Shown: positions 51,928 to 64,000 of the stretch, one piece after another
How positions within the stretch are numbered: the stretch's first letter is position 1
Layout of the letters: each line of letters begins with the position of its first letter
DNA from: a candidate division Zixibacteria bacterium SM23_81
Lineage (GTDB): Bacteria > SM23-81
NCBI GenBank assembly: GCA_001304015.1
Contig: LJUY01000006.1
Location: 1-64,000, forward strand
Length of the DNA: 64,000 nt
Direction: 5' to 3'
The notes under the pieces: model-generated
Told to the model about the DNA's origin: nothing
Database searches by the model: none
The model's input: only the letters and a program-made list of their open reading frames with translations
Position numbers and translations under genes: made by a program

Positions 51928-52968
51928 GTGGTGGACGTGTCCCCTTTGTTTTTGATAGGCGCACAGAGATCGGGCACCACTCTTATGCGCCTGATACTGA
52001 ATGCCCATTCGCAGATAGCCATTCCGGAAGAAGGTACCTTTTTAATGCCATTATTAAAAAAAAGGTTACTTAAACGGGAAATATCGGGCCCTTTTCTGAA
52101 AACTCTCCTTAGTTATTTTGCCTTAAATCCGCAGTTTAAACTATGGGGACATGACTTCAGTGAATATTTTGCACAACTCTCTAAAAGAGGTAGGACTACT
52201 GTCCGTGAATTGATGAGCGGTATTTTTTCCGTCTATTCTGGCAGCGAAGGCAAAATAATATGGGGGGACAAAACTCCTTCCTTCTTCAGAAAGATCGACA
52301 TCCTCTTCGCCCTATTTCCCAAGGCCAAATTCATACATATTGTTCGCGACGGTAGAGATGTTTTTGACAGCTGGAGAAAAATGGATCCTTCTAAAAACAA
52401 CTCCCCTCTTATAGCCATAGACTGGAGTTATAAACTATTTAGAATTGAAAAATCCTTCACCAAGATACCCCCCGAAAATAGAATAACGATTCGATATGAA
52501 GATCTCCTTGAAAATCCAGAAAAAGCCATAAAATCAGTCTGTTCCCTTGCGGGAGTCGAATATGAGGCCACGATGTTGGAATTCCATCGAACTAGCCATA
52601 AGTATATTGGCACACACCACTCCAAACTGATATTTAAGCCTTTAAGCAAGAACAACAGGTACAAATGGAAAAACAATTTGACTAACCGGGAGACAAGGAG
52701 CTTTACCCTCCTGGCCAGATATTTTCTAAAGAAGTATAATTATGAAATCGAAGACACCGGGATGAACATTCCTGACATGCTTTCTATACTTAAGAACATC
52801 ATTATCGGAGTTCCCATGAGAATAATGAGTGTATGGCGAGCAAAGAGATCTTTAGAAACAATCCTTAAGAAAGGGCAACTGATTGATTCCATGAAAGTTG
52901 GTGAACTACCACGAGGCGTCCGAAAGAGGGCGGGGGGGATTAAAAACGCACCGGGGAAGGAGATCTGA
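51928..52968 (+). CDS. Sulfotransferase family protein
   Basis: 346 residues. The PAPS 5'-phosphosulphate loop is FLIGAQRSGTTLMRL near the N terminus, and the 3'-phosphate motif is VRDGRDVFDSWRKM. EERGTF-like elements read HSQIAIPEEGTFLMP. Typical of cytoplasmic carbohydrate or lipid sulfotransferases. The GTG start at 51928 has AGGAG eight bases upstream. Base composition is clearly more A+T-rich than the flanking core genes, and it begins an accessory region on the opposite strand from most of the window, consistent with transfer. Likely acceptor: an exported glycan; not shown by sequence. Confidence 0.88.
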   Translation: MVDVSPLFLIGAQRSGTTLMRLILNAHSQIAIPEEGTFLMPLLKKRLLKREISGPFLKTLLSYFALNPQFKLWGHDFSEYFAQLSKRGRTTVRELMSGIFSVYSGSEGKIIWGDKTPSFFRKIDILFALFPKAKFIHIVRDGRDVFDSWRKMDPSKNNSPLIAIDWSYKLFRIEKSFTKIPPENRITIRYEDLLENPEKAIKSVCSLAGVEYEATMLEFHRTSHKYIGTHHSKLIFKPLSKNNRYKWKNNLTNRETRSFTLLARYFLKKYNYEIEDTGMNIPDMLSILKNIIIGVPMRIMSVWRAKRSLETILKKGQLIDSMKVGELPRGVRKRAGGIKNAPGKEI

Positions 52969-53437: not shown

Positions 53438-54345
53438 TAGAAAATGGATACACGGGCAGAAAATGTCCTCAGTGCGGTTTGATATTCATTTCACCACGGC
53501 CGACTTTGGCCAAAATTTTGAATCTCTACGGTCACGATCAGACCGTCGTATCCGCTAGATCACATATATCAGCGGCTTTTAGCAAAAGGCTCTATGCAAA
53601 GCACAATGTTCGTATAATTAAAAAATTTATAAAAACGGGTTCTATGCTGGAAATTGGTGCTGGTGCAGGATATTTCTTAGATGAAGCCAGAAAAGAGGGA
53701 TTTGAAGTCTATGCGAATGAGCTCAATACTATTCTAGCTAATTATATTGAAAAAGTATTAGCAATACCTTGTGAAAGTTCTCCTTTGGATATTTCTCTCT
53801 TTAACGGGAAGAAATTTGACATTATTTATCATTGTAATGTCCTAAGTCACTTGTATAACCCAGTCGTGGAATTTCAAAAGATTAATGATAAATTGAAAAA
53901 AAATGGATTGGTTGTATTTCAGACTGGAAACCTTGGCGATGTAAAAGAAAAGTATTTTAAATTCATTTCAAAATTTATGTATCCAGACCATTTATTCTTT
54001 TTTAGTGAGGATAACTTACGGGAGCTGCTGAGACGAACTGGATTTGAATTTGTAAAAATACACAGATATTCTATATTACCACAGTTGATGTTTTCTAAAA
54101 TGGCAAGAAAGGTAATGAATTTCGTCAAATCTAAAGCCAGAGCTAAAAACTTGGATCAACATAATCCGACTGAAGTTCCATCTTTTAATGTCCCTCATGC
54201 TCACAACAACGCTGTCCATTTCAAGCAATTTATTAAGAATGCATATAGTTGTATTCTCTATCTTATTCGTTATAAAATAGGATACGTAATACCCAAAAAG
54301 CAACGACCACAAACAGTTATTGTTGTTGCTCGCAGAACCAATTGA
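53383..54345 (+). CDS. Class I SAM-dependent methyltransferase with N-terminal zinc ribbon
   Basis: 320 residues. Four cysteines in CIFC (6, 9) and CPQC (29, 32) form a zinc ribbon. The Rossmann fold shows motif I MLEIGAGAGYFLDEA and post-motif ANELN, and then IIYHCNVLSHLYNP. The domain order (Cys-rich head, methyltransferase type 12, and a tail with LFFFSEDNLRELLRRTGFEF) is common in sugar and lipid methyltransferases of polysaccharide loci. Strongly A+T-rich codon use suggests horizontal origin. The ribosome site is poor. The TGA overlaps the next ATG by one base. Confidence 0.85.
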   Translation: MEDIQCIFCNRSSDRIVIVENGYTGRKCPQCGLIFISPRPTLAKILNLYGHDQTVVSARSHISAAFSKRLYAKHNVRIIKKFIKTGSMLEIGAGAGYFLDEARKEGFEVYANELNTILANYIEKVLAIPCESSPLDISLFNGKKFDIIYHCNVLSHLYNPVVEFQKINDKLKKNGLVVFQTGNLGDVKEKYFKFISKFMYPDHLFFFSEDNLRELLRRTGFEFVKIHRYSILPQLMFSKMARKVMNFVKSKARAKNLDQHNPTEVPSFNVPHAHNNAVHFKQFIKNAYSCILYLIRYKIGYVIPKKQRPQTVIVVARRTN

Positions 54346-54704
54346 TGCCTCGCTTGACATTTGCTGGAGATATTGTAAGAACTTTTTCCCTACGGTATAT
54401 GTTGTTCCTGTTGCCGTGGAAAGGCAAGACTTGGGATCTTATACCGGCCGTCAATCATATGGGCACTGGATGGCTGCAGGCCATCTGTCGGGAGTTATAT
54501 TCCAGATACTACTGGATCGTTAAAAAGTTTGGAGAGGCTACCGGCATACCAGTCCTTATGAACACGTCTTTCAACCTACGCGGTAAGCTCATCGTAAGCA
54601 GTCCCGCCGGTGCGTGCAATACGTTTTCCAAAAGCGAAATAGACATATTGGTAATGAGCCAATATTTGGTAAATAAGGAGGCTTTTCAACGAATCGCCAA
54701 CTAA
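54345..54704 (+). pseudogene. C-terminal relic of a NodU/CmcH-type carbamoyltransferase
   Basis: About 120 codons. The segment LIPAVNHMGTGWLQAICREL and then TGIPVLMNTSFNLRGKLIVS plus DILVMSQYLVNK match the final quarter of NodU-family carbamoyltransferases (IPAVTHVDGT..., GVPVLLNTSFN...RG). The kinase-like (Kae1-type) N-terminal domain and the catalytic core that carbamoylates sugars are absent. The upstream methyltransferase gene runs up to it, so this is a truncated remnant rather than a functional enzyme. A complete copy may lie elsewhere in the genome. Confidence 0.75.
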
Positions 54705-56118: not shown

Positions 56119-58044
56119 TTACTTGACCAGCAGCATCTTACAAGTTTCCCTGAAATCGCCAGCCTCAAGTGAGCAGAAGTACACTCCACTGGCCACTTCC
56201 TCCCCTCGACCGTTTCTTGCATCCCAAGATATCTGGTACTCCCCTGGTGGCTGATTCTCCTCCACCAGGGTTTTGACCGACTGTCCCAAGGAATTGTATA
56301 TCCTTACCTCTACCGGCGCCTCCACAAGCAGATGATAACGAATGTTGGTGGAACCATTGAAGGGATTGGGAAAATTCTGCCACAGCTTATACTTTGAGGG
56401 CCTCGAACCTGATAAGTTGTCAGCAGATCTTTTCAGCTCTATAGCCGTCAGGGAGTGGGCGGGAAATGTATACGAAAAACTCGTATCAACAGAAGCCAAG
56501 GTTGAGTGTATGATGGTGACTGTATTGGGATCGTCCTCGTTATGAGCGGTGATGTCGGGCCCATTCAGAGTCCAAATGTTGGCCTCAGGGTGGGGCTCAA
56601 ATCCCACCACCTGGATGGCCACCTCGACATCTTGTTCAAGTTGTTTATTGATCACCATGATATGCAGTTTTTTCTTTGCGGTGTCAATTGAGGTCGCGAC
56701 GGACAGTTCTGGGACTGCGGGCATGGCTGGAACGCAAGAAACTCTAACGGTTGAAAATGTGTTGCAGTCGATGGTGTTGTCAAGCAGCATATCGCCGCAA
56801 TGTTCTGTGAACATCTGCTGTGCGTAGTACATTGGCCTTGCGAACCTGCGTGGCGGCCCCCAAGCGTAGCCGATGTGCCCGTGATAGACGTTGGAGCAGA
56901 GCATCCAGCTGCAGACGAACTCGATATCCCATTCGGGGCCGTCTTCCAAAAACATCATCAGCAAATCGGCGTAATAGAGGCCCGCCAGAAGGCTGACAGC
57001 TGACTGTTTGCCAGTTTTCTCAAAGTTAATTCCGTTGCTTCCAGCCACAATGCTGATATATGGATCAGCCTCTTGGTTAATAATCTCTCTCAACTCGCCG
57101 ATGTCAATGGGCGCCTGTTGTGTTGCCGCCATGCAACCGCGGTATATATCCTCTATATCGTCGGGTAAAGCGTATGTACCAGGGTATCCCGTGTGGATGT
57201 CCAAAAAATCCATATAGCCGCAGGCGATGCTCACCAGGGCGGCGTTCCATTCCAAAGAATCCCCAGATTGAATAAAGTGGGGAATGACGACTCCAGAAAC
57301 CCCGATCTTGATCGTCGGGTCAACGGCTTTCATGGCTTCGGAGAAAGCACAGAAATCTTGTGCGTAGGTGATGACGTCCATGCCCACTTTGGGATTGTGT
57401 ATCTCGTCGCCAACAACCCAGTATTTAACGCCGTATGGTTCAGGATGTCCGTTTTCGGCTCTTACTGCTGCCCAATCCGTGCCCCCTCTGGGGTTGGTGC
57501 CGTCGTTGGGCGCATTGCAGTATTCCACCCAATTGGTGGCTCTTTCTATTTTTTGTGTCAGGGGTGCTGTTTTGGATAGGTCACCGTCCATAATGCCAGA
57601 GACGGGATTAACGCAGATAAACGCCTCTGCCCCGATCATTTCGCACAGGGCCATGTGTTCGTCTGTGCCGTAGTGGAAATTACGGTCGGGTTGGCTGGGG
57701 CGTGAGTCTGGTCTGAGGTTATGGGGGCCGATGCCGTCTTCCCAGAAGTATTCATTGGCACCCCCTGGAAATCGCATTATGGTGGGTCGCAGGCCCAATA
57801 CCAGCTCCTCGGCCTCTGGCGCAAATCCCCAGACCGTAAGGCTGTCGGGCTGTGTCATATCCAGCAGTCTGTTGCCGTGATGATGGGGTTGCGAGTTGCC
57901 CAGGAAAAGCGGATTAACAGGGCCAAGATACTCATTGGCATAGACGGAAATGGTGGCCGCCGATAACGGGGTCACTAACGGAGGGCAGAAAAACAGGAGA
58001 GATGGGAGAAAAAAGAAGAGAATCGCCTGTGTTGTCCTCCTCAT
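56119..58044 (-). CDS. Secreted GH51-like glycosidase with type-9-like sorting tail
   Basis: About 641 residues. Signal peptide (ILFFFLPSLLFFCPPLVTPL), then a (beta/alpha)8-like domain: LRPTIMRFPGGANEYFWEDG, as in GH51 arabinofuranosidase-like enzymes, and KYWVVGDEIHN in the acid/base position, where the usual Asn-Glu is Asp-Glu. A beta-sandwich follows (PAHSLTAIELKRSADNL). The last 85 residues are the FlgD/T9SS-type tail: KLWQNFPNPFNGSTNIRYHL and GEEVASGVYFCSLEAG. The ATG at 58042-58044 has AGGAGG five bases before it. It should be exported and anchored, acting on external polysaccharide; substrate not determinable. Confidence 0.78.
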   Translation of the reverse strand: MRRTTQAILFFFLPSLLFFCPPLVTPLSAATISVYANEYLGPVNPLFLGNSQPHHHGNRLLDMTQPDSLTVWGFAPEAEELVLGLRPTIMRFPGGANEYFWEDGIGPHNLRPDSRPSQPDRNFHYGTDEHMALCEMIGAEAFICVNPVSGIMDGDLSKTAPLTQKIERATNWVEYCNAPNDGTNPRGGTDWAAVRAENGHPEPYGVKYWVVGDEIHNPKVGMDVITYAQDFCAFSEAMKAVDPTIKIGVSGVVIPHFIQSGDSLEWNAALVSIACGYMDFLDIHTGYPGTYALPDDIEDIYRGCMAATQQAPIDIGELREIINQEADPYISIVAGSNGINFEKTGKQSAVSLLAGLYYADLLMMFLEDGPEWDIEFVCSWMLCSNVYHGHIGYAWGPPRRFARPMYYAQQMFTEHCGDMLLDNTIDCNTFSTVRVSCVPAMPAVPELSVATSIDTAKKKLHIMVINKQLEQDVEVAIQVVGFEPHPEANIWTLNGPDITAHNEDDPNTVTIIHSTLASVDTSFSYTFPAHSLTAIELKRSADNLSGSRPSKYKLWQNFPNPFNGSTNIRYHLLVEAPVEVRIYNSLGQSVKTLVEENQPPGEYQISWDARNGRGEEVASGVYFCSLEAGDFRETCKMLLVK

Positions 58045-58120
58045 GGGAGCCTCCTGAATGGGTAGATGGTGATAGAAAACCATAGGAACCCATTCAAGCT
58101 TATTGCAAGAATCAAGCCAG

Positions 58121-58162
58121 AAAAAAAAGATACCCAGGAATCCTCCTAAGTATCATTTTTTT
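58121..58162. terminator. Bidirectional terminator between the deacetylase operon and the GH51-like gene
   Basis: GATAC (58129-58133) pairs with GTATC (58150-58154), with an inner AGGA/TCCT stem, and is flanked by eight A on the left and seven T on the right, so it can work in both directions. On the minus strand it ends the NRPS-to-deacetylase operon. The 270 bases from here to 58434 show no gene. Confidence 0.8.
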
Positions 58163-58434: not shown

Positions 58435-59283
58435 TTACTTTTCAATCATGGGCGAAGGTACAAAACTCGCCGCCACCTCAGCGCCAGTTACGACGACTAC
58501 TCCGGGGTTGGAAGCGGCGATCTTTATAAAATTTCTAAAAGCCGCTAATCTCCCCTTTTCCTTCCCTAACATCCAGGGATGGAAACCGATGGCAAAACAT
58601 TTTCCCAGATGTTCAGGCTGCAAATACATCAACCACTGAGAAAGCATCTCTGGGGGTGATATACCTTTTCTAATATACATCCCATCAGTGCTTACTAGAG
58701 GGATTCTCAGTATCTTCTCTCCGCGCCCTGGTGTTTCTCCCGCACATTTGATCCAATGCAGATTCTGCCAGGAGGATTTGGACGCTCTATCAATGTTATA
58801 TCTAAAGCCAAGCGTGATCAGAATTTTCATCAAGGCATGTGACCAAGCGCCGTATGGGGAGCGAAAGCCCCAAAGCTCTACTGTGAATTTGCGTCTGAAG
58901 AACTCCTTTGCCTTGTGAATATCATAACGCAAATCATCTGCTGACATTTTAAGCGGTGCAACATGTCCAAAAGTATGGCAGGCTATTTCATGGCCATCCC
59001 TGATGAGGTGTTCGATGGTTTCAGGATATTTCTCAGCAACATGCCCAACGCAATTCCAGGTACTCTTCACTCTATACTCACAGAGAATGCGCAAGATTTC
59101 ATGAAAGACGTCAGATGACAATTCGCCTTGCTCGTTCCCAAACTCACGTTCGTAGTCGAAAGACAGAACGAGCCGGATCTTGCCGGAATCCTCGGCTGTC
59201 GGCCGGATGAGTTCGTGGCGCACAGATATATTCCGTATCTTCCGCCTCAAACGGTAAGGAATGAAACCGAACTGTTCAAACAA
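58435..59283 (-). CDS. Polysaccharide deacetylase family protein
   Basis: 282 residues with a NodB domain. Motif 1 is SFDYE (canonical TFDDG; the second Asp that binds metal is Tyr, with a Glu next to it). Motif 2 is CHTFGH, complete His-Thr-x-x-His. Motif 3 is FRSPYG, with Arg-x-Pro-Tyr. No signal peptide, like the cytoplasmic deacetylases of exosortase/EPS loci. Probably removes N- or O-acetyl groups from a glycan precursor. TTG start at 59281-59283 with GGAGGAG further up. 165 bases separate it from the hydrolase genes upstream. Confidence 0.83.
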   Translation of the reverse strand: MFEQFGFIPYRLRRKIRNISVRHELIRPTAEDSGKIRLVLSFDYEREFGNEQGELSSDVFHEILRILCEYRVKSTWNCVGHVAEKYPETIEHLIRDGHEIACHTFGHVAPLKMSADDLRYDIHKAKEFFRRKFTVELWGFRSPYGAWSHALMKILITLGFRYNIDRASKSSWQNLHWIKCAGETPGRGEKILRIPLVSTDGMYIRKGISPPEMLSQWLMYLQPEHLGKCFAIGFHPWMLGKEKGRLAAFRNFIKIAASNPGVVVVTGAEVAASFVPSPMIEK

Positions 59284-59448
59284 GAGTGACCGTCTCCTCC
59301 ATATCTGATACTCATCTCATCAGCGCTAGGCAAATACAACTCATTTTGTCCTCAACAATCACCAAGTTCTTAAAAAAAGTAGAGAGCCCAAGAAGTGTTG
59401 CCGATGCCCTGTTTTGGTCAGCTAAAATCTATGGGTATTGAGTTAGCT
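59284..59448 (+). other. Gap between deacetylase and hydrolase 1 with a short plus-strand frame
   Basis: A stop-free plus-strand stretch ends in TITKFLKKVESPRSVADALF and WSAKIYGY followed by TGA at 59440. It resembles, weakly, the tail of the broken frame near 53300 (FKEPIRIADVLLFNNKLLKR). It may be a relic of a transferred gene or chance. No minus-strand gene here. Confidence 0.2.
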
Positions 59449-60315
59449 TCATATCAACCCTGGTGCCCAATCGAGAAGAATTTCAATAAGATGTTGCTGC
59501 TTACAAAGCGGCGTAAAGGTATGATCTGTATCTTGAATAACTTCTATCCTTAATTTGCCATATTTCTTCAACTCATGAATCTCATCTCCGAGTCTGCTTT
59601 GTAGGTAGTCCAAACCTCGATCGCCTCCGGAGTAAATAAAGAGAGGGCTAATGCCGCGGGCTGACAATACCTGCAAATCTGCTACCAGATTGTTCGCTCT
59701 TGAAGACATATCTCTTTTACGAACAAACAAGCGCTTTATCTGACTCGTGGTTGATCGTATAATCTGCTGGTAACGAGACTTCCCTTTCATCGCTCTTCGC
59801 CAACTTTTGAGACTAAACAAGGCACTTCTCCAGTAATGGCGAGCTACTCTGTCATATACCACAGAAGACCGCATCTCTTCATTATCATCAAAATACACCG
59901 GAGCATTGATGGGAACAACACCCACAACTCGAGGATCACACAAAGCCGCTTTAAATGATATAACTGCTCCAGAACATATGCCAATGAGAATAAATCGATC
60001 AATGCCTCTTGTCGCATTCAGATAGTTCAGCGCTTCCTGGGTTTCGTTAATCGCTCTCTCATCGGAAAGAGATTCAACCTCACTTGCTCTGCTGTCTCCA
60101 ATTCCAGAGAAGTCAAATCTCAATACAAAGAACCCTTCCTCAGCCAACTTCCGCGCCGCTTTCACGTAGAGACGATGGGGACCGACTCGATGCAAGAATC
60201 CAGAATTGAGAAAGACAAACGCAGGAAAGTCATTGCCACTGAAAACCGGAGTTGGCTCGGTAATGATACCAACCAAAGATTTGGTTTTCCCAAAAAGCAC
60301 AGCTTTGTCTCTCAT
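59449..60315 (-). CDS. Alpha/beta hydrolase, exosortase-associated hydrolase 1 type
   Basis: 288 residues. The fold shows FVFLNSGFLHRVGPHRLYVK (oxyanion strand), LRFDFSGIGDS, and the nucleophile elbow ILIGICSGAVIS with Cys instead of Ser (Gly-x-Cys-x-Gly). This Cys elbow and the HRVGPHR start resemble the hydr1 family found next to exosortase A and EPS genes. Its ATG overlaps the TGA of hydrolase 2 by four bases. Together with the NRPS and carrier-protein partner, a thioesterase or acyl-transfer role is possible. Resemblance is by motif, not by search. Confidence 0.78.
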   Translation of the reverse strand: MRDKAVLFGKTKSLVGIITEPTPVFSGNDFPAFVFLNSGFLHRVGPHRLYVKAARKLAEEGFFVLRFDFSGIGDSRASEVESLSDERAINETQEALNYLNATRGIDRFILIGICSGAVISFKAALCDPRVVGVVPINAPVYFDDNEEMRSSVVYDRVARHYWRSALFSLKSWRRAMKGKSRYQQIIRSTTSQIKRLFVRKRDMSSRANNLVADLQVLSARGISPLFIYSGGDRGLDYLQSRLGDEIHELKKYGKLRIEVIQDTDHTFTPLCKQQHLIEILLDWAPGLI

Positions 60316-61130
60316 GGGAACATCTCAGAAATCCAGGAGACCACAAACTGCAGTACTTTAATAGGTACCATGCCCTGACCCCAGTCATCCCTTTCAATCC
60401 AAGGTTCAAAACCAGGGATGTGTTTATACCGCAAAGAAACACCAATGCTGTTTAGATGCTCACGAAACCTTCCATCCTCACTCACGTCACTGCTTTCGAT
60501 GAACAGTATTTTGCTAGCCGGTTTCTGCCGAATTGCGTAAAGGTCCAACTTTTCAAGATCTTTCAGCATAGAATCTGGAAGGGGAAACCCAAGCGCTTCT
60601 CTGTAACTTTCTCCTTCGGAGAAGGACTTTACCCCAGGAAAAAAGTTCCTTATCTTTTCCTGATGCAAGGTTGTCAGCTCCTCAATGTATTTCCTTCCAT
60701 TGATAACCGGATTCCAAAGGACTATACCATCAATATCACCTCGTTCGGCTCCAGCCAGCATCGCAAGGTTGCCCCCTAAACGAAGGCCCGCTAAACAAAT
60801 CTGATTCAGATCGCTTCCGCCTTTTAGTTCTTCTACCGCCGTTGATATATCGGCAAGCCATTGGCGAATTTCGCCCTGGTCGCTATCGCCCTCAGAATCA
60901 CCACATCCGTAATAATCAAACCGTAAGGTGTGAAAACCAGCCGAAGAAAGAAGCATAGCTAATCGTACAAAGGCACGATGAGAACGGATGTAGTCTTCCC
61001 CCATGGGATAACACAGAATAACTCCAACATTGCGAGCTTTTTCGAGTTGTGGCGGGTGATAAATCCCAAAAAGCGATCTGGCTGAATTCCCGAAATAGAA
61101 TGGCTCCATCATATCATACTCAGATATCAC
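60312..61130 (-). CDS. Alpha/beta hydrolase, exosortase-associated hydrolase 2 type
   Basis: 272 residues. It has GVILCYPMGEDYIRSHRAFV, LRFDYYGCGDSEGD, and an elbow AGLRLGGNLAMLAG in which Arg takes the nucleophile place (Gly-Leu-Arg-Leu-Gly), as in the hydr2 family of exosortase A loci. With no Ser or Cys nucleophile, it may be a non-catalytic partner of hydrolase 1. It overlaps hydrolase 1 by four bases and the PPTase gene by 11 bases, so all three are expressed together. Confidence 0.78.
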   Translation of the reverse strand: MISEYDMMEPFYFGNSARSLFGIYHPPQLEKARNVGVILCYPMGEDYIRSHRAFVRLAMLLSSAGFHTLRFDYYGCGDSEGDSDQGEIRQWLADISTAVEELKGGSDLNQICLAGLRLGGNLAMLAGAERGDIDGIVLWNPVINGRKYIEELTTLHQEKIRNFFPGVKSFSEGESYREALGFPLPDSMLKDLEKLDLYAIRQKPASKILFIESSDVSEDGRFREHLNSIGVSLRYKHIPGFEPWIERDDWGQGMVPIKVLQFVVSWISEMFP

Positions 61131-61818
61131 TCCGGTTGTTGGAATCTCCTACTGTCATTCCAGTAAAAATATAGCCTCGATGAAAGAAAAACTTACCCTT
61201 ATGGCAAGTTCCCTTCGCAAAAAAGAGATCGGTATCAGCCATATATCTGGCTTCGAACTCACCAATATTTGGATTCACAGAAATGGTTATATCATGAAAA
61301 TTCACCCATCTTTTGCTGGTTGTATATTGACATTTATAAAAGCATTCCTTTGCACTAAAGATAAGAGCGATATATTCTTGCTGAACATCGAGAGGCAAAG
61401 AATGTATCCATGACAACTCTTGTTTGGTGCATATTGCTTTCCAATAATCCCGCTCTAATCTGCCTACACACTCCGCATCGAATCCCACGCTTTCGATCTC
61501 TGTTTTCCGGGCAAGGGCTACTCCACAGTACCCCTCGGTATGGGAGATGCTGCCAATGATACCGGGCGGCCAAATAGGACTTCTGTCAGTGGCCATCAAT
61601 ATGGGAAAATTTCTTATGGCCACTTGGGCTAAGGCCCTGCGAGCACAGAGACGTCCAGCGATGAATTCTTGTTTTCTTTTGGGCACGGCGTTGCATATGA
61701 ACGCCTCTTCTTGGGGATAAAGCGTCCCTTCGCTGAATACAGGATTTGCCTCCTCTGTTATGACTTGATCAGGAAAAAGGCAAGCTATGATGGTATGATC
61801 GCACTTTTCTGTTAACAT
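61120..61818 (-). CDS. 4'-Phosphopantetheinyl transferase (EntD/Sfp type)
   Basis: 232 residues. Key motifs: GSISHTEGYCGVALA, the acidic pair in VGFDAECVG, and FSAKECFYKCQY (the W/F-SxKEAxxK signature). The N-terminal half has PKRKQEFIAGRLCARRAL, as in EntD. It moves the phosphopantetheine arm from CoA onto the Ser of the carrier domain. It is two bases downstream of the NRPS gene, so its substrate is almost certainly that PCP domain. ATG start at 61816-61818. Confidence 0.92.
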   Translation of the reverse strand: MLTEKCDHTIIACLFPDQVITEEANPVFSEGTLYPQEEAFICNAVPKRKQEFIAGRLCARRALAQVAIRNFPILMATDRSPIWPPGIIGSISHTEGYCGVALARKTEIESVGFDAECVGRLERDYWKAICTKQELSWIHSLPLDVQQEYIALIFSAKECFYKCQYTTSKRWVNFHDITISVNPNIGEFEARYMADTDLFFAKGTCHKGKFFFHRGYIFTGMTVGDSNNRSDI

Positions 61819-61820
61819 AG

Positions 61821-64000
61821 TTACTTCTTCTGCAATTGTCTTTCCAAATTGGCCGACATTTGGCCCAAAGTTTGATTGACAAATTCTGCAAAAGGCACTT
61901 CTATATTAAGATTCTCTTCTATCAATGAGATTGCTCGAATGACCAAAAGCGAATGTCCTCCCAGATCAAAGAAATTGTCATGAAGCCCGACTTTATCAAC
62001 GCCTAATACACCTCTCCAGATCTCAGCGATCTTTTTTTCCATGGAACTACGTGGCGCGATGTAATCCAACTTCTCTATTTCGTGACCCTCGCTCAATTGA
62101 CGCAAAAGCTGGTAATCAATTTTACCATTAGGAGTGAGAGGAATGGCATCAAGTGGAATAAATTGAGAGGGAATCATGTAATCAGGAAGCACCTCTCTCA
62201 AGAAACGCCGTAAGGACAAAGAGGAGACAAGCTCGTCACAGATGATATATGCGATTAACCTTTTATCTCCCTGGCCAATATCGGATGTTACTACAACGCA
62301 ATCTTTGATGACTTCATGCTTGGACAGCGCTGATTCTATCTCACCTAATTCAATACGAAATCCCCGGATCTTCACCTGCTGGTCGATGCGCCCCAAAAAC
62401 TCGATGTTCCCATCGGGCAAATAGCGGGTCAAATCCCCTGTCTTGTACAAACGTGCGCCTGGCTTCTCATTGAAGACGTTGGGGACGAACTTCTCCGCTG
62501 TCAACTCTGGATGCTTTAGATAACCCCTGGCCAGGCCCACACCTCCAATGTGCAATTCAGCCGGCACGCCAATGGGAACGGGTTGTAAATGGGCATCCAG
62601 CAGAAAAACTTGCGTGTTGCTAATAGGCCGACCAATAGGTGGCGTTCGCCTATCTTCTGCGCATTCAGCTACGGTTGACCAGATGGTATCTTCGGTGGGA
62701 CCATAGAGGTTAAAGATACGACGTCCCTTGATCCAGCGTGGAACGAGGTCTCCAGGACAGGCTTCTCCAGCTACATTGAGTATTCCCAACGCCGGTAATT
62801 TCTCGGTCGGTAAGGCACCCAGAACCGATGGGGTGAGTACCATACAAGTTATGCTCAAATCTTGCATTAACTTTATCAGGGCGGGGCCGGGTAGCAGGGT
62901 CTCCTCCTTCCCCAGGCAGAGCGTTGCTCCAACTCGCAAAGCCAAAACGATATCGAAGATTGATGCATCAAAACTAAAAGAAAAAAACTGCAGGACACGG
63001 TCGGTAGAGCCGAGCTTAAATGTCCTCATATGTGCGTCAGACACATTACATAGACCACCGTGCGTCACAAGGACGCCTTTGGGTTTACCCGTAGATCCCG
63101 AGGTGTAAATCACATAGGCCAGGTTGTCGGGCATCACACCGCTGATGGGATTCTTCTCGCTCAGTTCATGGATGGTGGCCCAATCTGTATCCAAGCAGAC
63201 CACACGTGCCCTATGCTCAGGCAATCCAGCGAGCAACTTTTCTTGAGTCAACAGCACCGGCACTTGGGAGTCTGACAGCATGAAGGCCAGGCGTTTCTTG
63301 GGATAGGCCGGGTCTAAGGGCATAAACGCTCCGCCAGCCTTGAGCACACCGAGTAGTCCCACTATCATCTCCAATGACCGCTCCATGCATATCCCCACGG
63401 GCACCTCTGGTCCCACGCCAAGATTCCGCAAGTGGTGCGCCAACTGATTGGCACGTGCATTCAAGGCACGATAGGTCAACTGCTCCCCTTCATAAACCAC
63501 ACCGATGGCGTCGGGCGTCCGCCCCACCTGATCTTCAAACAGATGGTGGAAACACGTATTCTGGGGATAATCCGCCCCGGTATCGTTCCATTCCACGAGC
63601 ATTTGGTGACGCTCTGTGGTTGAGAAAAGCGGAAGGTCCCAGATAGGCCGGTCTGGATGAGCAACAACGCCTTCCAGCAGAATCTGGTATTGTTTCGCCA
63701 TCCGGGCAATAGTGGCAGCATCAAATAAGTCTGTATTGTACTCCAACGACCCGATCAGCCCTTCTCCTGTATCCTTCACGATCAGAGTCAAGTCAAACTT
63801 CGCTGTTCCTGTGTGGACCTCCTCCGCGGAGCCAAACACCAGTCCCGGGAGCTCCACATCCTGCCTGGGAGCATCCTGCAGAACAAACATCACCTGAAAC
63901 AGCGGATTGCGGCTCATATCCCGCTCCGGCTGTATTTCCTCAACAAGTTTCTCAAAGGGCAGATCTTGATGAGCATAAGCCCTCAGTGCTTCTTGGCGCA
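61821..64000 (-). CDS. Non-ribosomal peptide synthetase, final C-A-PCP module (5' end outside window)
   Basis: About 726 codons, open beyond the right edge. The first visible residues, AYAHQDLPFEKLVEEIQPER, are the conserved end of a condensation domain. The adenylation domain has A2 LKAGGAFMPLDPAYP, A3 YTSGSTGKPKG, A5 NLYGPTE, A7 YKTGDL, A8 GRIDQQVKIRGFRIELGEIE, and A10 PNGKIDY. The carrier domain has DNFFDLGGHSLLV with Ser for the pantetheine arm. No thioesterase or reductase follows; the protein ends 30 residues after the carrier. Ten-residue substrate code by alignment to GrsA reads DAFVNALIWK, which I cannot assign. Product release may depend on the hydrolases nearby. Confidence 0.93.
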   Translation of the reverse strand, partial: RQEALRAYAHQDLPFEKLVEEIQPERDMSRNPLFQVMFVLQDAPRQDVELPGLVFGSAEEVHTGTAKFDLTLIVKDTGEGLIGSLEYNTDLFDAATIARMAKQYQILLEGVVAHPDRPIWDLPLFSTTERHQMLVEWNDTGADYPQNTCFHHLFEDQVGRTPDAIGVVYEGEQLTYRALNARANQLAHHLRNLGVGPEVPVGICMERSLEMIVGLLGVLKAGGAFMPLDPAYPKKRLAFMLSDSQVPVLLTQEKLLAGLPEHRARVVCLDTDWATIHELSEKNPISGVMPDNLAYVIYTSGSTGKPKGVLVTHGGLCNVSDAHMRTFKLGSTDRVLQFFSFSFDASIFDIVLALRVGATLCLGKEETLLPGPALIKLMQDLSITCMVLTPSVLGALPTEKLPALGILNVAGEACPGDLVPRWIKGRRIFNLYGPTEDTIWSTVAECAEDRRTPPIGRPISNTQVFLLDAHLQPVPIGVPAELHIGGVGLARGYLKHPELTAEKFVPNVFNEKPGARLYKTGDLTRYLPDGNIEFLGRIDQQVKIRGFRIELGEIESALSKHEVIKDCVVVTSDIGQGDKRLIAYIICDELVSSLSLRRFLREVLPDYMIPSQFIPLDAIPLTPNGKIDYQLLRQLSEGHEIEKLDYIAPRSSMEKKIAEIWRGVLGVDKVGLHDNFFDLGGHSLLVIRAISLIEENLNIEVPFAEFVNQTLGQMSANLERQLQKK

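Follow-up and report, generated by a model that had tools for sequence, protein, structure and literature searches.

The NRPS operon

Contig LJUY01000006.1 of the candidate division Zixibacteria bacterium SM23_81 carries on its minus strand an operon in which a two-module nonribosomal peptide synthetase (NRPS) is encoded together with a pair of alpha/beta hydrolases. The stretch analyzed, here called the window, comprises the first 64,000 bp of this 126,665-bp contig, and the remainder of the contig was also read. The gene order is MbtH, NRPS1, NRPS2, 4'-phosphopantetheinyl transferase (PPTase), hydrolase 2 (H2) and hydrolase 1 (H1), followed by a deacetylase, with the 5' part of the operon lying beyond position 64,000. 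A first-pass annotation had placed five genes on the minus strand of the window, and all five lie where it put them: NRPS2 (1094 aa; 61821..65105 of the contig, with 61821..64000 in the window), the Sfp-type PPTase (61120..61818; PF17837 1.3e-27, PF01648 1.3e-14), H2 (60312..61130), H1 (59449..60315) and a NodB-type polysaccharide deacetylase (58435..59283). Reading past the window, as that annotation had proposed, added the rest of NRPS2, NRPS1 (65102-68308 of the contig), a gene for an MbtH-domain protein (68429-69061; PF03621 1.9e-17) and an exopolysaccharide (EPS) cluster, all of the operon genes being on the same strand. From NRPS1 through H1 the genes are tightly packed, with spacings of -4, +2, -11 and -4 bp at the NRPS1/NRPS2, NRPS2/PPTase, PPTase/H2 and H2/H1 junctions.

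Domain profiles resolve both NRPS1 and NRPS2 into condensation (C), adenylation (A) and carrier (T) domains, with the HHxxxDG motifs intact and the T-domain Ser present. With the MbtH and PPTase partners added, this is the full complement expected of an NRPS, and the PPTase is predicted to make the carrier domains active. NRPS1 and NRPS2 account for both condensation domains found in the genome and for both adenylation domains that exceed the TIGR01733 cut-off; the carrier domains found comprise theirs and one small carrier resembling a fatty-acid acyl carrier protein (ACP). By eye, the N-terminus of NRPS2 looks like a TubC-type docking domain. The MbtH-like protein has a C-terminal extension of ~150 residues with an odd Pfam match to CBF_beta (9.5e-8).

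Substrate codes could be computed for both modules, with the A domains numbered after a PheA reference. The NRPS1 code is DLFTNALTYK, or DLFNNALTYK with the usual placement of position 278, its fourth letter depending on the alignment; the latter reads as an alanine-like code. NRPS2 gives DAFVNALIWK, which has no substrate assignment. A search of the open literature found no paper bearing either 10-letter code. The first C domain, that of NRPS1, is far closer to elongation domains (McyB 411 bits; also PvdL) than to the other types listed in the PDB, and similarity does not support a starter-type domain, as the starter domain 7c1h reaches only about 43 bits.

Missing thioesterases

The protein chain of NRPS2 ends 15 residues after its T domain, leaving no integrated thioesterase or reductase of the kind usual in a terminal module, as the first-pass annotation had noted. 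We measured the same C-terminal length with a T-domain hidden Markov model in 37 NRPS proteins adjoining H2/H1, including our own; these are not phylogenetically independent, since many Variovorax loci are near copies. In 36 of the 37, only 8-54 residues follow the last T domain, which leaves no room for a thioesterase. The remaining protein, from genome G627, has a C-terminal region that by eye resembles a class III aminotransferase, a domain also present in the Variovorax hybrid described below. No recognisable thioesterase was found in any of the 37. Many NRPS-H2 and H2-H1 junctions across these loci are 4-bp overlaps. The missing thioesterases are the strongest argument that the H1/H2 pair may unload the NRPS.

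The hydrolase pair

H2 and H1 are encoded side by side in that order, with a 4-bp overlap. The best NCBIfam models are TIGR03100 for H1 (98.8 bits; curated cut-off 168.45) and TIGR03101 for H2 (103.6 bits; curated cut-off 202.75), against Pfam S33 scores of 34-46 bits, so that the exosortase-associated models suggested by the first-pass annotation outscore the general family for both proteins. Full membership of the exosortase families did not hold up: H1, H2 and the deacetylase, whose best NCBIfam model is TIGR03006 (XrtA deacetylase; 65.9 bits, cut-off 276.2), all fall under the curated cut-offs. TIGR03100 and TIGR03101 are themselves labelled hypothetical in NCBIfam, and we found no paper using these family names in the open literature.

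The altered nucleophile elbows reported earlier, Cys in GICSG of H1 and Arg in GLRLG of H2, are real, but a peculiarity of this locus is ruled out because both are family-wide traits. The elbow Cys is present in 29/29 H1 sequences examined, and the H2 relatives examined have no nucleophile at the elbow, its position being taken by Arg or, in rhizobia, by Gly. Cys114, Asp232 and His265 are invariant across nine aligned H1 sequences, and the XrtA-type H1 of genome G288, which is over the TIGR03100 cut-off (199.5 bits), reads LCDGA at the column of C114. The Asp column is misaligned in Variovorax and a few other H1s of the 29-sequence alignment, where an insertion shifts it, so the acid residue is less certain than the Cys and the His. 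H1 reads as an alpha/beta hydrolase with C114 as its nucleophile and D232 and H265 as probable triad partners; H2 probably has no catalytic activity and serves as its partner.

Modeled with AlphaFold (mean pLDDT 76.5, with a poor cap region), H1 has an alpha/beta hydrolase fold with a helical cap. The nearest solved structures in a Foldseek search are feruloyl/cinnamoyl esterases and lipases, and two thioesterases, DcsB (Z 22.6) and the curacin enzyme (Z 20.2), are among the further matches; the modeled fold by itself says nothing on the substrate. The model of a fused H2-H1 protein was too poor for use (pLDDT 51). On the H1 tree our protein is sister to the H1 of genome G335 (support 96/97), and NRPS-linked H1s need two changes, although a single clade is not rejected (approximately unbiased test, p = 0.38). 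The reading frame of this nearest relative (G335:C7:47769-48584) has one in-frame TGA and the N-terminus of its NRPS looks broken, so that the locus may be decaying.

Recurrence in other bacteria

A scan of 395 genomes of one large phylum identified an H1 of this kind (E <= 1e-25) in 28. The 31 hydrolase loci read in this phylum comprise 20 with an NRPS upstream on the same strand, 5 with an amino acid:[carrier protein] ligase and 6 on short contigs or in other settings. The search set holds only four genomes of the phylum to which SM23_81 belongs, and the viral contigs searched gave no match. In two genomes of one genus, G527 and G567 (loci L103 and L104), the NRPS-H2-H1 cassette is present twice, near a gene for an exosortase/EpsI fusion; the NRPS part of one cassette is a lone A-T protein of ~590 aa.

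A tblastn search against plasmids identified a Variovorax paradoxus locus in which NRPS-NRPS-PPTase-H2-H1 is followed by genes for Wza, a Tyr kinase, a sugar transferase, GDP-fucose synthase and glycosyltransferases. According to a genome scan, many Variovorax and related bacteria have the cassette, either linked to EPS genes or beside a resistance-nodulation-division (RND) efflux pump; EPS genes follow it in VAI-C, E3, a Xylophilus metagenome-assembled genome (MAG), V. beijingensis and NBRC 15149. These clusters share the order NRPS-PPTase-H2-H1 with our operon and likewise have no thioesterase; they differ in being larger NRPS/polyketide synthase hybrids with a ketosynthase and a class III aminotransferase, ending C-T. 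A gammaproteobacterial MAG has the cassette inside an EPS locus in the order H2-H1-NRPS.

The pair also follows carrier-loading systems of other kinds, which bears out the earlier proposal that the NRPS stands in place of an AMP-ligase and carrier protein. In Shinella and G288, which have XrtA-type loci without an NRPS, H2-H1 come after an AMP-ligase and a carrier protein. In Azospirillum and myxobacteria they come after an amino acid:[carrier protein] ligase that is seryl-tRNA synthetase-like, in loci that also encode the carrier protein, an acyl-CoA dehydrogenase, DUF1839, GH2 and a fused H2-H1 protein. Our operon resembles these ligase loci in that H2-H1 come after the device that loads the carrier, there with an amino acid; it is unlike them in that they have a single carrier, an aminoacyl-tRNA synthetase-like ligase and a fused H2-H1. 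The word 'fused' in the title of the first-pass annotation fits Azospirillum and myxobacteria, whereas the genes are merely adjacent here.

What is new, as far as the sequences can tell, is that the H2-H1 pair recurs with thioesterase-less NRPSs and with other carrier-loading systems in distant bacteria, H1 being a predicted Cys enzyme and its partner nucleophile-less. Nothing relevant was found in the literature on NRPSs combined with EPS or exosortase.

The exopolysaccharide cluster upstream

From 69.4 to ~102 kb of the contig (~33 kb), on the same strand as the operon, lies an EPS cluster. Its assembly and export genes encode Wza, Wzz, a Tyr kinase, a TIGR03015 ATPase and WecA-, Wzx- and Wzy-like proteins, and it also encodes glycosyltransferases, PMT-like and flippase-like proteins, an ATP-grasp protein and sugar-nucleotide enzymes. 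The ATPase (contig 97519-99063) scores 330.1 bits with the XrtA/PEP-CTERM-associated model TIGR03015, over its cut-off of 324.5. With EPS genes as its neighbors, a plain siderophore operon is ruled out for this locus, and the upstream region does not hold the siderophore pathway that would have told against the first-pass interpretation. Of the parts sought beyond position 64,000, glycosyltransferases and the ATPase are present in the cluster, and two proteins of the genome exceed the PEP-CTERM cut-off, with tails VPEPGSLFLLGTGYAALCGLSWRRRKKK and VPEPATLLLLGTGLVGLGAVGTARRRKK (G000:C70:99869-99946 and G000:C23:10136-10210; L168 and L169). An exosortase (PF09721) was not found in the assembly, which is 92.6% complete, so that the gene may be missing from it.

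Known XrtA/PEP-CTERM EPS loci have TIGR03100 and TIGR03101 hydrolases, a TIGR03006 deacetylase, the AMP-ligase TIGR03098 and a carrier protein. Our locus is like them in its Cys-type H1 and nucleophile-less H2, its related deacetylase, the over-cut-off ATPase in the EPS cluster and the PEP-CTERM proteins in the genome. It is unlike them in that NRPS modules replace the ligase and carrier, the hydrolases and deacetylase score under the family cut-offs and no exosortase was found.

Several other genes of the cluster stand out. Adenosine 5'-phosphosulfate (APS) kinase and ATP sulfurylase are encoded at contig 70734-71369 and 75863-77014, and a sulfotransferase lies on the plus strand of the window (51928..52968; PF13469 8.3e-36), only loosely associated with the operon. 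The polysaccharide may be sulfated, through a sulfotransferase possibly linked to these 3'-phosphoadenosine 5'-phosphosulfate (PAPS) genes. Genome G523 also has an ATP-sulfurylase-like match near its NRPS-H1 locus. Three genes of the type I phosphodiesterase/alkaline-phosphatase superfamily surround the APS kinase gene (contig 69359-70720, 71389-72774 and 73062-74585). A KamA-family radical SAM protein, lysine 2,3-aminomutase-like (contig 81526-83427), might make a beta-amino acid; for comparison, class III aminotransferase domains are present in the Variovorax and G627 NRPS lines.

Deacetylase and downstream features

The deacetylase (PF01522 3.7e-19) has all of its catalytic motifs (SFDYE, HTFGH and RSPY). 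The gap of exactly 165 bp that separates it from H1 agrees with the earlier description, and at this distance it is likely, but not certain, to be co-transcribed with H1. A terminator-like hairpin of 11 pairs with a T8 tail lies on the minus strand at 58129..58154, 280 bp past the deacetylase stop. It had been described as a clear terminator; hairpin and tail are indeed there, but such sites are no commoner in the region than in shuffled sequence (3 observed, shuffled mean 3.0), so only the hairpin's own strength speaks for a terminator. Directly downstream, at window positions 56119-58083, is a gene for an arabinofuranosidase-like protein with FlgD-Ig and a Por-secretion C-terminal tail. A short open reading frame at 54342-54704 resembles by eye the C-terminal end of a NodU/CmcH-type carbamoyltransferase and is perhaps a gene remnant.

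Glycan genes around related loci

In 20-kb windows, glycan genes were present at 2 of 23 loci, suggesting no link. The count was low because NRPS genes fill much of such windows, and we therefore recounted over 27-70 kb, scoring a locus as positive if it had at least two glycosyltransferase or assembly genes plus an export or assembly hallmark. Glycan genes were then found at 8/16 NRPS loci and 0/4 amino acid ligase loci (p = 0.10); the former figure is biased upward, 7 of the 16 having been widened on hints of glycan genes. Two of the 16 widely viewed NRPS loci (G527 and G567) carry an exosortase gene. The association of NRPS-H2-H1 with glycan genes is common, not general.

Proposed role and alternatives

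Gene order, domains, missing thioesterase, conserved Cys and recurrence are features of the sequences themselves; from these we infer the unloading by H1/H2, the part played by H2 and a glycan as acceptor. The best explanation of the whole, whose chances we regard as evenly balanced, is a thioesterase-less two-module NRPS that is unloaded in trans by H1/H2, possibly onto the exopolysaccharide. The NRPS would build a short peptidyl thioester, a dipeptide, with MbtH assisting adenylation and the Sfp-type PPTase activating the carriers. Cys114 of H1, with Asp232 and His265, would pick up the peptide from the final carrier domain in thioester linkage and pass it to an acceptor, and H2, which has no nucleophile, would probably be a structural or carrier-docking partner of H1. 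Most likely the acceptor would be the polysaccharide repeat, or the lipid-linked precursor of that repeat, modified on an amine or a hydroxyl; the deacetylase encoded alongside might expose the amino group in question. A glycan is favored because the operon sits in an EPS cluster. The dipeptide may plausibly be attached to the exopolysaccharide. Of the first-pass interpretation, the replacement of AMP-ligase and carrier by an NRPS in an XrtA-like EPS cluster stands, while the transfer of a peptide to a glycan keeps its conditional status, some loci having no glycan genes.

Several observations weigh against this explanation. NRPS1 begins with an elongation-type C domain and, beyond the one ACP-like carrier, no further carrier was found in the genome, which leaves the donor for module 1 unexplained. 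A glycan acceptor is not general, since no glycan assembly genes were seen at the loci of G335 (the nearest genome by H1), G451, G549 and G776 or at the Variovorax loci adjoining the RND pump. The difference between 8/16 and 0/4 reaches only p = 0.10 in a sample partly chosen on glycan hints, and esterases and lipases head the structural matches of H1, whose fold is no proof of thioester chemistry.

The alternative that survives best, although we think it unlikely, is that the product of the NRPS is a small free peptide or a lipopeptide (a surfactant, signal or metal ligand) which H1 merely hydrolyses or cyclises off the carrier, the EPS location being due to co-regulation or chance. It would suit the Variovorax loci beside the efflux pump and the several NRPS-H2-H1 loci of the large phylum that have no glycan assembly genes within 40-60 kb, but our own operon is continued, without a change of strand, by a complete EPS cluster, and roughly half of the loci viewed over the longer range are EPS loci; an exosortase is encoded at two. 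Considerably less probable is an editing role, in which H1 and H2 would act as type II thioesterases on misprimed carriers and release would be left to another enzyme or to direct attack of the acceptor on the thioester. Stand-alone hydrolases beside NRPS genes are often of this type; against it, all 29 H1s have Cys rather than Ser, the pair is also found with single-carrier systems and the adjoining NRPSs have no thioesterase of their own. The separate thioesterase-like genes near the NRPS in G205, G776 and G527 cut both ways, in that such genes do occur at these loci and, where they are type II thioesterases, argue that H1/H2 do something else. That the hydrolases remove esters from the glycan and have nothing to do with the NRPS is the least credible account, for although it fits the esterase-like structural matches and the XrtA-type loci that hold the pair without an NRPS, in many genomes the genes of the pair overlap those for an NRPS or for carrier loading, the pair occurs also with no glycan gene nearby, and by eye we noticed no signal peptide in either protein (no predictor was run).

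The proposed transfer to a surface polymer has an analogue in the Dlt system, where an A-domain enzyme and a carrier protein supply the amino acid thioester for D-alanylation of teichoic acids. In Dlt the A domain forms a protein of its own and the acyltransferase is a membrane protein, as opposed to the full C-A-T modules and soluble-looking hydrolase pair here. The recurrent coupling of the pair to thioesterase-less NRPSs and to amino acid ligase/carrier systems gives it one testable role, the unloading of carrier-bound acyl groups. More tentatively, and with somewhat less than even confidence, we propose a route from a thioesterase-less NRPS through a Cys-dependent acyltransferase (H1 with the pseudo-hydrolase H2) to a secreted, peptide-substituted polysaccharide unlike peptidoglycan, which would explain the role of the TIGR03100 and TIGR03101 families. 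If the acceptor is indeed a polysaccharide, this would be a new route to capsules or biofilm matrix that bear peptides, and a class of products bound to the surface would be escaping genome-mining tools.

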